Assembly: GCF_001425405.1 (NCBI RefSeq)
Contig: NZ_LMQP01000002.1
Location: 357 to 64,356, forward strand
Origin: Sphingomonas sp. Leaf412
GTDB taxonomy: Bacteria > Pseudomonadota > Alphaproteobacteria > Sphingomonadales > Sphingomonadaceae
Length of the DNA: 64,000 bases
Direction: 5' to 3'
Shown here: piece by piece, positions 2,989-60,122 of the stretch
Layout of the letters: each line of letters opens with the position of its first letter
Position numbering within the stretch: the first letter of the stretch is position 1
The notes under the pieces: model-generated
Database searches by the model: none
Told to the model about the DNA's origin: nothing
Seen by the model: only the letters and a program-made list of their open reading frames with translations
Program-made: the position numbers and the translations under genes

Positions 2989-3240
2989 ATGAACCTGCTG
3001 CTGCTCCTGTCCGCCCTGCTGTCCGCGCTGACCGGCGTGGGCGGGAGCGTGCGTCAGCCGCAGGTGGCGCAGGCGGTGGCGCAGCAGGCGCGGGTGTCGG
3101 CGCCGCGGGTCGCGGTCGCGCCCGCCGCGCGGCCCGTCGCCGCGCTGCCGGTGCCGGCGGTCCAGACCATCGCGCCCGTCGTGCGCGCCTTCGCGCTTGC
3201 CGCGATCGCACCGCTCTACGCCACGCGCCGGCGCGAATAG
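2989..3240 (+). CDS. Small secreted or membrane-anchored protein upstream of secA
   Basis: The 83-residue reading frame starts [19 protein letters not shown], a good signal peptide or anchor. It continues as an alanine, valine and proline-rich low-complexity chain ([32 protein letters not shown]) ending RRRE. No conserved domain is recognised. The 98 bp between its end and secA makes co-transcription possible. Ribosome-binding sequence is weak, and GC-rich low-complexity frames can be spurious, so support rests mainly on the clean N-terminal hydrophobic segment. Confidence 0.5.
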
Positions 3241-13975: not shown

Positions 13976-14028
13976 GTGTCCCCGCGAAGGCGGGGACCCA
14001 GTCTGGGCTCCCGCCTTCGCGGGAGCAC
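13976..14028. repeat. REP-like palindrome, family C
   Basis: CCCCGCGAAGGCGGGGA and TCCCGCCTTCGCGGGAG flank CCCAGTCTGGGC, giving three nested or side-by-side hairpins in 53 bp. It lies between the convergent CAP and rdgB genes and could act as a transcription stop. Copies of the same unit are at 35371-35420 and 60064-60113. Confidence 0.85.
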
Positions 14029-14037
14029 ATCATGTTT

Positions 14038-32873: not shown

Positions 32874-35363
32874 TTACAGGTCGGGCAAGACCTGATCCGC
32901 GCTGCCCCATCCCCGCAGCGCGCGGCTGCCCGCGCGTTCAAGCAGGTCGGCCGCGTCGCCGACGTGCCACATCGCGGCGGTGTCGATGTCGCGCAATTCG
33001 GTCCAGGACACCGGCGCGGCGACCGGCGCATCCGGCCGCGCGCGTGCGGAATAGGGCATGACCGCGGTCGCGCCGCGCTGGTTGCGCAGCCAGTCGATGA
33101 AGATGCGGCCCTTGCGCTTCGCCTTGCTCATCGTCGCGACGAAGCGGTCGGGCTCCGCCGCCGCCAGCGCGCGCGCGAAGCGGTCCGCGAAATCCTTCAC
33201 CGCCGGCCATTCCGCCTGCGGCGTCAGCGGCACGACGACATGGACGCCCTTGCCCCCCGATAGCATCGCGAAGCTGGCGAGGCCCAGTTCGGCCAGCTGG
33301 TTCTTCAGGAATTCCGCCGCCTTTTTCGTATCGCCGAAATCCAGCCCCTCGTCGGGGTCGAGGTCGAACACCAGCCGGTCGGGCCGTTCCAGCGCATCGA
33401 CGCGGGCGCCCCAGCCGTGGAACTCGATCGTCCCCATCTGCACGCACGCGACCAGCCCGGCGGTGTCGCGGACGTACAGGTAGTTTTCGGTCCCGCCGTC
33501 CTTTTCGGGGATCGGCACCTGGTGCACCGCGTCGCCGAACGATCCGGCGTCGTGCTTCTGGAAGAAGCAATGCTTGCCGCGCCCCTGCGGGCAACGGACC
33601 AGGCTGACGGGGCGTTCGGCGGTCCATGGCAGCATGACGGGGGCGATGGCGGCGTAATAATCGGCCAGGTCGCCCTTGGTGATCTTTCCCTCCGGAAAGA
33701 TCACGCGGTCGCGGTTCGATACCTTTGCCGCGGGTGCGGCGGGGGTCGGGGCGGGGGCGGGGGTTTCGACCGTGACGTCGGCGGCGTGCTTGTCGCCGCG
33801 CAAGCCGATGAAGCTGGAATGGCGCAGCACGCCGTCGGGCGTGACCTCCGCATAGGCGATCTCCGCCACTAGCCGGGGCGTGACCCAGCGCGCGCCCTTC
33901 ACCGCGGCGCGGGGGGCATCGACGGTGGCGGTCTTGCGTTCCAGCCGGTCCAGCTTTGTCCGCACTTCGTCCATCGATGCGTGCGTGAAGCCCGTCCCGA
34001 CCTTTCCCGCATAGCGCAGCGTGCCGTTCTCGTGCACGCCCAGCAGCAGCGACTTGAAGCCGCGCGACTTGTCCGACGGCAGCCAGCCGACGATGACGAA
34101 TTCCTGCCGCCGCGTGCATTTGATCTTCAACCAGTTCGCGGTCCGCTTCCCGCGATAGGGCGCGTCGGCGCGCTTGCTGACGACGCCTTCATACCCTTCG
34201 CGGCACATCGTCTCGAACAATTCTTCCCCGCTGCCCGCGATGTGATCGGCGAACCCGATGCGCGCGTCGTCGGCGGGGAGGATCGCGCGGAGGCGTTCCT
34301 TGCGGGCGACGGTGGGCAATGGCGTCAGGTCCTCGCCGTCCAGCGACAGCAGGTCGAAGGCGAACAGGGTCATGTCGCCGCCGGTGGAGATGGCGTCCTT
34401 CAGCGTCGAGAAGTCGGGGCGGCCGTCCTTCAACGCCACGATCTCGCCGTCGATCAGCGCGGGGGGCAGGTGCGCGGCGGCGTCGGCGATGCCCGCGAAC
34501 CTGTCGGTCCAGTCGAGGCCGCTGCGGGTGTAGACCTTCGCCGCCCCGCCGCCGGTGGCGACGAGCGCGCGGTAGCCGTCGTATTTGACCTCGTGGATCC
34601 AGTCGGTGCCCGTGGGAACCGCGTCGACGAGGGTGCATAATTGGGGTGGCTGGAAGTCCGGCATATCCTCCCCGGCACGGGGAGGGGGACCGCGGCGCTT
34701 CTGCGCCGTGGTGGAGGGGGGCTTGCCACGAATGGTCCGCTTGCGGCCCGCCCCCTCCACCGGCTTCGCCGGTCCCCCTCCCCGTGCCGGGGAGGATAAG
34801 GCGATCTCCTGCATCGTCCGGCCCGTTTCCACGCTGGTCAGCGCGGTTTCGACCAGCGTGTCGGTGCCGCCGGCATGGGCGTCCTCGATCTTGCGCAGCA
34901 GCCAGTTCTCGCGCTTTTCCTTCGCGCGCGGCTTCAGGCGGATGAGCAGCCATTCGCCCTTCATCCGTTCGCCGTCGAGGACGAAGTGGAGGTGCCCCTC
35001 ATCGAGGTCCTTCGCGCTCTTTCCCGCGATCGGCGACCATGTCCCGCGGTCCCACAGCATGACGGTCCCGCCGCCGTAGCTGCCCTTGGGGATCGTCCCC
35101 TCGAACGTGGCGTAGGACAGCGGATGATCCTCGGTGCGCACCGCCAGCCGTTTTTCGTCCGGGTCGAGGCTGGGGCCGCGCGTCACCGCCCAGCTTTTCA
35201 GGACACCGTCGACTTCGAGGCGGAGGTCCCAGTGCAGGCGCGTCGCGTCATGCTTCTGCACCATGAAGCTGTTACCGTTCCCCGGTGCCAGCGTGCCCGC
35301 CGGTTCGGCGGTCTTCGCGAAGTCGCGCTTCGCGTTGTACGTGGCGAGGGGGTCCCGGGTCAT
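32874..35363 (-). CDS. ligD: Multifunctional NHEJ DNA ligase LigD
   Basis: LigD repairs double-strand breaks with Ku. The 829 residues hold three domains in order. The phosphoesterase is at about 1-185 (FMVQKHDATRLHWDLRLEVDG). The ATP-dependent ligase follows, with adenylated Lys260 in HEVKYDGYRAL, DGEIVALKDG and EGVVSKRADAPYRGKR. The primase-polymerase is C-terminal (VSLVRCPQGRGKHCFFQKHD, LVFDLDPDEGLDFGDT, GGKGVHVVVPL). Residues 190-233, joining the first two domains, are coded by a palindromic repeat that keeps the frame. The downstream end lies near the CDF transporter gene; ku is upstream, across a repeat. Confidence 0.95.
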   Translation of the reverse strand: MTRDPLATYNAKRDFAKTAEPAGTLAPGNGNSFMVQKHDATRLHWDLRLEVDGVLKSWAVTRGPSLDPDEKRLAVRTEDHPLSYATFEGTIPKGSYGGGTVMLWDRGTWSPIAGKSAKDLDEGHLHFVLDGERMKGEWLLIRLKPRAKEKRENWLLRKIEDAHAGGTDTLVETALTSVETGRTMQEIALSSPARGGGPAKPVEGAGRKRTIRGKPPSTTAQKRRGPPPRAGEDMPDFQPPQLCTLVDAVPTGTDWIHEVKYDGYRALVATGGGAAKVYTRSGLDWTDRFAGIADAAAHLPPALIDGEIVALKDGRPDFSTLKDAISTGGDMTLFAFDLLSLDGEDLTPLPTVARKERLRAILPADDARIGFADHIAGSGEELFETMCREGYEGVVSKRADAPYRGKRTANWLKIKCTRRQEFVIVGWLPSDKSRGFKSLLLGVHENGTLRYAGKVGTGFTHASMDEVRTKLDRLERKTATVDAPRAAVKGARWVTPRLVAEIAYAEVTPDGVLRHSSFIGLRGDKHAADVTVETPAPAPTPAAPAAKVSNRDRVIFPEGKITKGDLADYYAAIAPVMLPWTAERPVSLVRCPQGRGKHCFFQKHDAGSFGDAVHQVPIPEKDGGTENYLYVRDTAGLVACVQMGTIEFHGWGARVDALERPDRLVFDLDPDEGLDFGDTKKAAEFLKNQLAELGLASFAMLSGGKGVHVVVPLTPQAEWPAVKDFADRFARALAAAEPDRFVATMSKAKRKGRIFIDWLRNQRGATAVMPYSARARPDAPVAAPVSWTELRDIDTAAMWHVGDAADLLERAGSRALRGWGSADQVLPDL
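34666..34796. repeat. Palindromic repeat, family E, inside the ligD coding region
   Basis: The 27-bp arms at 34666-34692 and 34770-34796 are perfect inverted copies, starting TCCTCCCCGGCACGGGGAGG. An inner pair (GTGGAGGGGG/CCCCCTCCAC) sits inside. In the ligD frame it codes the linker from about SSPARGGG to PPPRAGEDM. This is the same style of element as the intergenic palindromes of the window but here translated, with no stop codon. Confidence 0.92.
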
Positions 35364-35370
35364 CGTTTGT

Positions 35371-35420
35371 CCTCCCGCGGAGGCGGGAGCCCAGACTGGG
35401 TCCCCGCCTTCGCGGGGACA
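35371..35420. repeat. REP-like palindrome, family C
   Basis: CTCCCGCGGAGGCGGGAG, CCCAGACTGGG and TCCCCGCCTTCGCGGGGA lie in series. The element separates ligD from ku, which are both read leftward, so a ku-ligD transcript would carry it. Same family as 13976 and 60064. Confidence 0.85.
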
Positions 35421-35432
35421 CGGACAATGGCG

Positions 35433-36299
35433 CTATGCACGTTTCTTCGCCGCCGGCTTTCGCGCCGGGGCCTTCTTCGCCGGTTCCTTCTTCGCCGGCG
35501 CCGCCTTCTTGCCCTCCATCGATTTCTTCAGCGCGGCCATCAGGTCGACGACGTTCGATCCCGACCGGCCGTCGTCGTCGCCCGTGTCCTCGATGATCTT
35601 GCGCCCCGTCTTCGACTTGCGCTTGCGGTCGATCAGGCCCTTCAGCGCATCGACGTAGCGGTCGTGGAAATCCTGCGGATCGAAGGTGCCCGATTTCTTC
35701 TCGATCAGCGCTTCCGCCAGTTCGAGCAATTCGGGTTCGGGCTTCGCATCGCCGATGTCGCGGAAATAGCCCTGCGCCTTGTTCACCTCGTCGGCATAGC
35801 GCAGCGTTTCCAGCACCATGCCGCGCCCGCATGGTTTCAGGCTGACGACATATTCGCGGCCGCGCATGGCGAGCTGGCCGAGGCCCACCTTCTTCGTCCG
35901 CTTCAACGCCTCGCGCAGGACGATGAACGCTTCCTCCGCCAGGTCGTCGGCGGGGACGACGAAATAGGGCTTTTCGTAGTACAGGACGTCGATTTCGGAC
36001 TGGTCGACGAATTGCGTCAGTTCCAGCGTCTTCTTCGATTCCAGCTTCACCGCGTCGATCTCGTCCTGGTCGAGCAGGACGTATTCGCCCTTCTCGAACT
36101 CGAACCCCTTCATGATCTCGTCGGTGTCGACCGCGCCGAGGCCGGGGACGACCTTTTCGTACCGGATCGGCTTTCCCGACGGCTCGTGGATCTGGCGGAA
36201 GCTGACCGCGGCGCCGGACTTCGTCGCGGAATAGATCTCGACCGGGATCGAGACCAGTGCGAGCCGGATCTGTCCCTGCCAGTATGCGCGCGCCGCCAT
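35433..36299 (-). CDS. ku: NHEJ end-binding protein Ku
   Basis: Bacterial Ku forms a ring on DNA ends and recruits LigD. The 288-residue protein has the core MAARAYWQGQIRLALVSIPVEIYSA, FRQIHEPSGKPIRYEKVVPG, EIDAVKLESKKTLELTQFVD and VLREALKRTKKVGLGQLAMRGREYVV. The C-terminal tail is lysine/alanine/proline rich (KKAAPAKKEPAKKAPARKP), similar to the basic tails that aid bridging and DNA binding. The ATG at 36299 matches the family start. It is upstream of ligD on the same strand. Confidence 0.95.
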   Translation of the reverse strand: MAARAYWQGQIRLALVSIPVEIYSATKSGAAVSFRQIHEPSGKPIRYEKVVPGLGAVDTDEIMKGFEFEKGEYVLLDQDEIDAVKLESKKTLELTQFVDQSEIDVLYYEKPYFVVPADDLAEEAFIVLREALKRTKKVGLGQLAMRGREYVVSLKPCGRGMVLETLRYADEVNKAQGYFRDIGDAKPEPELLELAEALIEKKSGTFDPQDFHDRYVDALKGLIDRKRKSKTGRKIIEDTGDDDGRSGSNVVDLMAALKKSMEGKKAAPAKKEPAKKAPARKPAAKKRA

Positions 36300-36365
36300 C
36301 GGATAACCCCCTCGTTGCGAAGGCGATTCAATCCGCGGGCGGGGTCGGGGGTTCCGCCGAACCTC

Positions 36366-36435
36366 CCGTTCGGCCTGAGCGACGTCGACGGCCATGCCCT
36401 GGGGCAGATGCGTCGACGTCGCTCAGCACGAACGG
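36366..36435. repeat. REP-like palindrome, family A
   Basis: CCGTTCGGCCTGAGCGACGT and CGTCGCTCAGCACGAACGG bracket an imperfect inner pair. It lies between the end of the TonB-dependent receptor gene and the start of ku, which are read in the same direction, and may end the receptor transcript. Confidence 0.85.
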
Positions 36436-60050: not shown

Positions 60051-60063
60051 TGGGCGTGCATTT

Positions 60064-60113
60064 GTGCTCCCGCGAAGGCGGGAGCCCAGACCGTGTCCCC
60101 GCCTTCGCGGGGA
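60064..60113. repeat. REP-like palindrome, family C
   Basis: GCTCCCGCGAAGGCGGGAGC and GTGTCCCCGCCTTCGCGGGG lie side by side between the convergent ends of phaZ and the alpha/beta hydrolase. Same family as 13976 and 35371. Confidence 0.85.
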
Positions 60114-60122
60114 CGCGCGAGT

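Follow-up and report, generated by a model that had tools for sequence, protein, structure and literature searches.

Unrelated palindromic repeats occupy the same in-frame sites of LigD and other housekeeping proteins in Sphingomonas

We analysed a window of 64,000 nucleotides from Sphingomonas sp. Leaf412 (contig NZ_LMQP01000002.1, positions 357 to 64,356), in which the ligD gene (32874..35363, minus strand) carries a palindromic repeat inside its reading frame. The gene codes for an 829-aa protein with 3'-phosphoesterase, ATP-dependent ligase and primase-polymerase domains; it is above the cut-offs of NCBIfam PRK05972 and TIGR02776 and matches Pfam LigD_N, DNA_ligase_A_M, DNA_ligase_A_C and LigD_Prim-Pol. 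Inverted-repeat and genome-match evidence places the repeat at 34664..34798 (minus strand), corresponding to LigD residues ~190-233, between the phosphoesterase and ligase domains. We call it family A; the family names used here are our own and were read from the translations. The left outer arm (34664..34692, plus strand) contains a small hairpin, CTCCCC-GGCAC-GGGGAG, and the right outer arm (34770..34798, plus strand) is its perfect inverse. The interior (34693..34769, minus strand), as judged by comparison of alleles and copies, is made up of hairpins, whose stems vary in a compensating manner, and of a centre that changes fast, and codes for the Lys/Arg-rich part of the insert.

A sequence-only reading of this DNA had described perfect 27-bp inverted arms at 34666-34796, read without a stop between the two LigD domains and placing a strong hairpin inside a DNA-repair mRNA. 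The arms are present, and they match perfectly over 29 nt rather than 27 (inverted-repeat score 29), with an extended pairing of 34 nt at 94%; the top score among codon shuffles of the LigD linker (n = 40) was 11. The element is a full family-A copy, stop-free within an intact LigD frame. As single-stranded RNA its predicted fold has an energy of −122.2 kcal/mol, compared to a shuffled mean of −72.7 (z −10.8). A known RNA family was ruled out by an Rfam scan of window positions 34500-35500, in which no match exceeded its gathering score and four microRNA-precursor matches were far below theirs. In an AlphaFold2 model built from the window LigD and 38 relatives (mean predicted local distance difference test, pLDDT, 76.1; predicted template modelling score 0.46), residues 190-230 had a pLDDT <50 and no secondary structure, and the insert is predicted to be a disordered linker.

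Family A is a dispersed palindromic repeat with many intergenic copies, as are the Rickettsia palindromic elements (RPEs). The sequence-only reading had asked for further copies of the arm in this genome, and these were found. We observed 84 matches to the element in the own genome of the strain (3.46 Mb, 5 contigs; both strands and the window copy counted), and 50 sites for an arm 18-mer with ≤2 mismatches (27 of them with none), against 0 for a reversed-pattern control. Clustering of the matches within the fetched stretches gave 49 places, the window copy included. Many copies adjoin stop codons: with gene boundaries taken from a simple codon model and open frames, no annotation being used, the stop of a frame of at least 150 codons lies within 40 bp of 32 of the 49 copies (the ligD and glyS copies being counted, although the frames flagged for them are probably spurious) and of 183 of 1594 control positions. 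The full layout is an outer arm with its small hairpin, a second hairpin (GGGACC-stem-GGTGGAGGGG), a centre and then the mirror image. Many of the 49 places hold half copies, solo outer hairpins or copies interrupted by N runs. Across 12 intact copies, 60 of the 72 frames are stop-free, compared to 52% for shuffled sequence, and more than one frame of the repeat is used by its hosts (SSPARGGGP or ILPGTGRGT in LigD, DPPRNGEGD in ValS). Family A is short, with terminal inverted repeats and without a transposase of its own, features that it shares with miniature inverted-repeat transposable elements (MITEs).

Matches to family A were found in 55 of 61 genomes of the genus, the own genome included, with 14 candidates scored per genome. 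It is present on 12 Sphingomonas and one Sphingobium plasmid records, repeatedly so in ten Sphingomonas parapaucimobilis plasmid records among NZ_CP155749 to NZ_CP155761, and one phage record has a 45-nt match; neither source informs on the mode of spread. Six solo outer hairpins, TATCCTCCCCGGCACGGGGAGGATA, were noted (two in L093, one each in L097, L098, L109 and L128), the form that a full copy would take after a deletion between its two GGGGAGG direct repeats. Copies are often split at the palindrome centre by N runs or poly-C (L104, L108, L109, L114, L116, L119, L131 and others), so that assembly gaps of the draft genome fall on these repeats. By eye, an apparently different repeat is nested in the family-A copies of L096 (2447-2628) and of the LigD linkers L085 and L057.

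To survey the LigD linker across the genus we took 142 loci (62 + 80), from which 137 linkers were parsed and, after 21 duplicates were dropped, 116 distinct ones were kept. These are distinct sequences and not species (genome G018 has two), and a few come from metagenome-assembled genomes or named neighbours, e.g. Hephaestia. Five loci (L079, L084, L088, L089 and L092) were not parsed, and L088 (G047), which has a family-B linker, is thus outside the 116. A linker was called repeat-derived when it matched at least three other own-genome copies (family A), or an inverted-repeat score of at least 11 with 0 of 40 codon shuffles as high. By this rule 55 linkers are repeat-derived (28 family A, 24 family B, two of another type and one family C, the last, L069, assigned by hand) and 61 were scored 'none'. 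The figure of 55 is probably an undercount; L056, L057, L059, L197, L199 and L223, scored 'none', resemble decayed repeats by eye. Non-LigD DNA was matched at E ≤ 1e-5 by 55 of the 116 linkers, a set overlapping but not identical with the repeat-derived one, and by 3 of 464 control segments of the same length from the same ligD genes. The sequence-only reading had expected a clean gap at residues 190-233 in relatives. This was borne out to the extent that 61 linkers were scored 'none', but in place of a bare junction most of these have a basic stretch rich in Lys and Arg (median length 35 aa; net charge +7.2 on average).

The families at this one site are mixed even among close relatives. LigDs 98.7% identical outside the linker carry families A (L033) and B (L164), as do the pairs L209 and L202 (97.6%), L190 and L055 (94.5%), and L193 and L054 (93.8%), A being named first in each; three LigDs 91–93% identical outside the linker hold three unrelated repeats (L067, A; L068, B; L069, C). 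Searched against their own genomes, with both strands and the query included, the family-B ligD linker of G047 gave 75 matches and the family-C one of G054 gave 82, one copy of the latter having 92% identity over ~106 nt; these linkers are therefore true repeats and not look-alikes. The remaining family-B linkers were assigned by pattern and palindromicity, and those of G031 and G012 also match that of G047. On a FastTree phylogeny of LigD with the linker left out, the five states require 33 changes, and the division into repeat and none requires 17, of which 15 are forced by starred branches. The scatter of family B on this tree is hardly separable from that of shuffled labels, which was as low in 60 of 500 shuffles. 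S. corticis (L150), the closest of the named relatives, has the family-A insert in common with the window LigD. Among 48 LigDs examined from other genera of the family (49 rows including one of the window's own genus, L360; the 48 being the best-scoring part of 66 genomes with a match), two convincing repeat linkers were found (L362 and L381); a third that was flagged, L405 (28 aa), is doubtful.

LigD is not the sole hotspot, a possibility ruled out by repeat inserts in GlyS, ValS, TruB and other hosts. The LigD palindrome described by the sequence-only reading is real, but the scale had been underestimated: the event is recurrent, and involves several unrelated families and several housekeeping genes. 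From the codon model and translation of the 49 own-genome copies, family A is also in frame within GlyS, the lipoyl acyltransferase (E2), GcvPB, ValS, TruB and RNase R. The host GlyS, GcvPB, ValS and TruB pass NCBIfam cut-offs, and the E2 and RNase R pieces are strong but under the curated cut-offs. The LigD, GlyS and E2 copies are free of gaps; those in GcvPB, ValS, TruB and RNase R hold N runs, so their frames are putative. The RNase R gene (L124, G000:C3:1199400-1205200) has two family-A copies, 2534-2623 and 3102-3160, both adjoining assembly gaps, in a putative frame. The insert is missing from the orthologues of some close relatives for LigD, GlyS, ValS and TruB.

In 39 of the 58 genus genomes with a GlyS match, the first piece of the profile match stops at position 373, and a second piece in the same frame, where listed, resumes at ~378. 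Among the 56 proteins aligned from these 58 genomes, 39 have an insert of at least 15 aa at this site, and 35 of the 49 that could be parsed for palindromicity are palindromic. Several families are represented among these inserts (A, B, C-like, FVPSEVEG-type and others). Several high-ranking family-A matches fall in such gaps, for example at G034:C1:1310105-1310235 and G056:C15:27934-28059 in GlyS, and at G034:C2:654816-654949 in TruB. Palindromic inserts were observed in 12 of 45 ValS and 8 of 28 TruB proteins, both from non-random samples: for ValS, the own protein, the 30 best-scoring loci and 15 with a split or partial match (45 of 46 parsed; the own copy, with its Ns, is not among the 12), and for TruB, the own protein and the 30 best-scoring loci (28 of 31 parsed). 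Close to its C-terminus the own GlyS meets a run of Ns, and the last piece of its profile match is in a different frame. A second GlyS site, after NxLRxxL and before FFADRLK, holds up to 83 highly divergent residues (at least 15 aa in 43 of 56) that are unlike the repeats (L105 and its relatives L230-L259 and L320-L344).

The charge of the inserts differs with the host protein. Repeat-derived LigD linkers have a mean net charge of +7.5 (range 3 to 14), similar to that of the 'none' linkers, and inserts of at least 30 aa average −2.1 in GlyS (37 inserts) and −3.4 in ValS (12 inserts), a few flanking residues being included. For the family-A interior between the arms the means are +5.8 in LigD (22 alleles), −1.6 in GlyS (10) and +3.0 in intergenic open frames (43), each comparison giving p < 1e-5 without phylogenetic correction. 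This test used the 22 of 28 LigD family-A linkers and the 10 GlyS inserts with both anchors; the interior of one GlyS insert (L248) extends into the right arm. The GlyS copy of G044 (L322) is read in the frame used in LigD (AKLVEG...), yet its interior charge is −1, which speaks for fitting at the protein level, either at insertion, afterwards, or both. From these data we infer that selection, and not insertion bias alone, lies behind the host-matched charge.

The arms are constrained in a different manner. In eleven family-A ligD alleles of one clade, whose flanks align without gaps, none of 22 fourfold sites varies in the arm-side parts, while the ligD flanks vary at 112 of 164 (Fisher p 1.8e-10); this and the other fourfold-site tests treat sites as independent. 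At the nucleotide level, 2 of 45 and 9 of 54 positions vary in the two arm-side parts, codon positions 1–2 more than 3. In the centre 28 of 48 nt are variable, so the insertion in that clade is not recent; the centre has only two fourfold sites, which precludes the same contrast there. The ratio of non-synonymous to synonymous polymorphism (pN/pS) rises from 0.04–0.08 in the flanks to 0.71 in the centre, and the element taken as a whole gives 1.02. When the window copy is compared with that of S. corticis, fourfold differences number 1 of 33 in the element and 130 of 372 in the aligned flanks (p 5e-5), and a stem has undergone a compensating change from G-C to A-T. A glyS pair (G034 and G058; L324 and L329) gave a similar result, with differences at 0 of 31 fourfold sites in the element and 42 of 223 in the flanks (Fisher p 0.004). 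The stems of the second hairpin are hypervariable yet paired: all three outer pairs are present in 28 of the 33 distinct stems, whereas 1000 shuffles gave 7.5 on average and 15 at most.

Upstream of ligD in the window lies an open frame for ku (35433..36395, minus strand; true start possibly further in), the partner gene in non-homologous end joining, identified by its Ku beta-barrel domain. The ku–ligD spacer holds a copy of the unrelated family B (35367..35422); a query of 35358-35432 gave 74 own-genome matches, both strands and self counted. Further family-B copies are present in the window at ~13976-14029 and 60061-60117.

We consider it very probable that a dispersed palindromic repeat landed in the LigD linker, that permissive landing sites of this kind are shared by unrelated families, and that two later constraints act separately on the arms and the interior. 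A family-A copy, mobile or formerly mobile, would have landed between the phosphoesterase and ligase domains and would have been kept because it is GC-rich, usually stop-free and flexible as a peptide; such palindromes would be tolerated where the protein is disordered and the frame is open. The LigD linker and set sites in GlyS, ValS, TruB and others would have received unrelated palindromic repeats repeatedly, not as the targets of a single element but as permissive sites where reading frame, disorder and local charge act as the filters. The arms would stay fixed as DNA or RNA, either because the stem-loop matters or because they are corrected as a palindrome, and the interior would drift fast while retaining a charge that suits the host site, basic in LigD and acidic in GlyS and ValS. 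A bolder form of this proposal, to which we give even chances, is that the several families are interchangeable mobile linker cassettes that keep arriving at the same permissive sites of essential proteins, with hairpin arms locked and an interior moulded by the host, towards basic in the DNA-binding LigD and towards acidic in GlyS and ValS, so that two selection regimes split one palindrome between nucleic-acid structure and protein electrostatics.

Several observations weigh against the landing of repeats at permissive, disordered sites, or narrow what can be drawn from the data. A pLDDT <50 was also obtained at LigD residues 1-27, 39-42, 62-70 and 160-173, so that predicted disorder is not peculiar to the insert, and the low value at the insert may be partly due to the many aligned relatives that lack it. 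Exchange of alleles between species by recombination could explain some of the 33 state changes. The charge p-values overstate independence, since a single clade supplied 11 of the 22 LigD interiors, and L031 and L150 are another related pair; also, as intergenic open frames are commonly basic too, the repeat itself accounts for part of the LigD charge. Several family-A copies have TA-type ends, and as the ends are palindromic a target-site duplication is unreadable. The own genome gave no match to the Y1_Tnp/RAYT profile (PF01797), which was positive in 5 of 14 control genomes; this search covered one genome, relatives not being searched for RAYT (the transposase associated with repetitive extragenic palindromic, REP, elements), nor other transposases at all. 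Finally, the freezing of the arms could be caused by gene conversion or palindrome correction rather than selection.

This last explanation, in which copies or the two arms of one copy correct each other by gene conversion or template switching, is the most serious of the alternatives, though we still think it unlikely. Perfect palindromes with compensating stems are the products expected from it, and the genome has many identical arm cores to serve it. However, in G034 and G058 the ligD copies have a GGCAC loop (L035 and L036) and the glyS copies a GGAAC loop (L324 and L329), so that copies are not homogenised genome-wide, and the outer loops of the glyS copy in these two genomes are not mutually complementary, yet its element is free of fourfold differences. 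It is rather doubtful that the hairpin was instead retained for a function as RNA within the ligD mRNA (for instance pausing between domains, processing by an RNase or shielding of a truncated transcript) with the peptide as a by-product. The very stable fold, the frozen fourfold sites, the paired stems with their compensating change and the abundance of copies next to stop codons are in accordance with such a role; on the other hand, more than half of the LigDs scored do without a repeat, the interior charge varies with the host protein, something not expected from an RNA role, and unrelated repeats swap at the LigD site, though these too are palindromic.

A REP or REPIN element moved by a RAYT transposase would account for two inverted half-elements, each with hairpins, often sited after stop codons. 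We regard this as improbable, and a RAYT-driven REP is rejected on the lack of a Y1_Tnp match in the own genome. The GTAG/CGTC tag named in the title of PMC3733652 is lacking from the 29-nt arm. Of negligible probability is an ancestral LigD linker that is palindromic by chance. The insert is indeed common to the window LigD and that of S. corticis, but 46 of the 48 linkers from other genera have no clear repeat, and the idea is refuted by the 61 'none' linkers together with the dozens of copies elsewhere in the genome; the non-ancestral status proposed by the sequence-only reading therefore stands.

Translated palindromes are best known from Rickettsia and Wolbachia, and they are already known as a kind; what is seen here is that unrelated families share the same sites. 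The comparisons below rest on the accessible portions of the cited papers. The RPEs (Ogata 2000) and their Wolbachia equivalents are, like family A, palindromes of ~105–146 bp found both between genes and in frame in conserved genes; palindromes of this type occupy 19 reading frames, and one tested product, guanylate kinase, was still active (PMC2229807). Their hosts include isoleucyl- and phenylalanyl-tRNA synthetases (PMC3767692). The Sphingomonas repeats work like these elements as described in PMC2229807, PMC3767692 and PMC2635572, in line with the sequence-only reading, which had likened the LigD insert to them and considered such cases rarely noted in sphingomonads. The likeness is one of function drawn from descriptions; we set family A apart from the RPE sequence families and claim no membership. 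Among the records listed in our search of the open-licence literature, whose coverage leaves out most subscription papers, there was no report of repeat insertions of this kind in sphingomonads. Unlike RPEs, these repeats are found in the high-GC Sphingomonas, at least three unrelated families occur at one LigD site, and A, B and C are each multicopy in a host genome. For RPE-4/6/7, 'hotspots for insertions of different origins' were weighed against a common origin, and the latter was favoured in the portion of PMC3767692 at hand, whereas the Sphingomonas data favour the hotspot alternative. A host-dependent charge, as seen here, is not described for RPEs in those portions of PMC2229807 and PMC3767692.

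Other small palindromic repeats fused in frame to genes are RU-1/ERIC of enterobacteria and the NEMIS/Correia MITEs of Neisseria (Delihas; PMC2229807, PMC2759123), for which the same portions do not describe the recurrent swapping of unrelated families at one housekeeping site that we observed. The coding palindromes of Nematomorpha mitochondria (PMC6649704) likewise combine perfect inverted repeats with coding; there, as far as the accessible text goes, both arms code for conserved protein regions, whereas here a dispersed repeat lies in a linker predicted to be disordered. Br-REP1/2 of Bradyrhizobium, of the REP/REPIN type, are palindromic repeats in alphaproteobacterial 3' untranslated regions; the part of PMC5082802 available describes no in-frame copies, in contrast to Sphingomonas, whose own genome here also lacks a RAYT match.

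On the practical side, repeat copies often coincide with assembly gaps and would lengthen housekeeping enzymes. For Rickettsia and Wolbachia it had been asked explicitly whether elements of different origin share insertion hotspots. Sphingomonas offers cultured strains together with dozens of natural replicates per site, with none, A, B or C in LigDs that are 91–99% identical outside the linker. These replicates allow direct tests of how non-coding DNA becomes protein, of the cost of an insert, and of the separate selection of hairpin and peptide.

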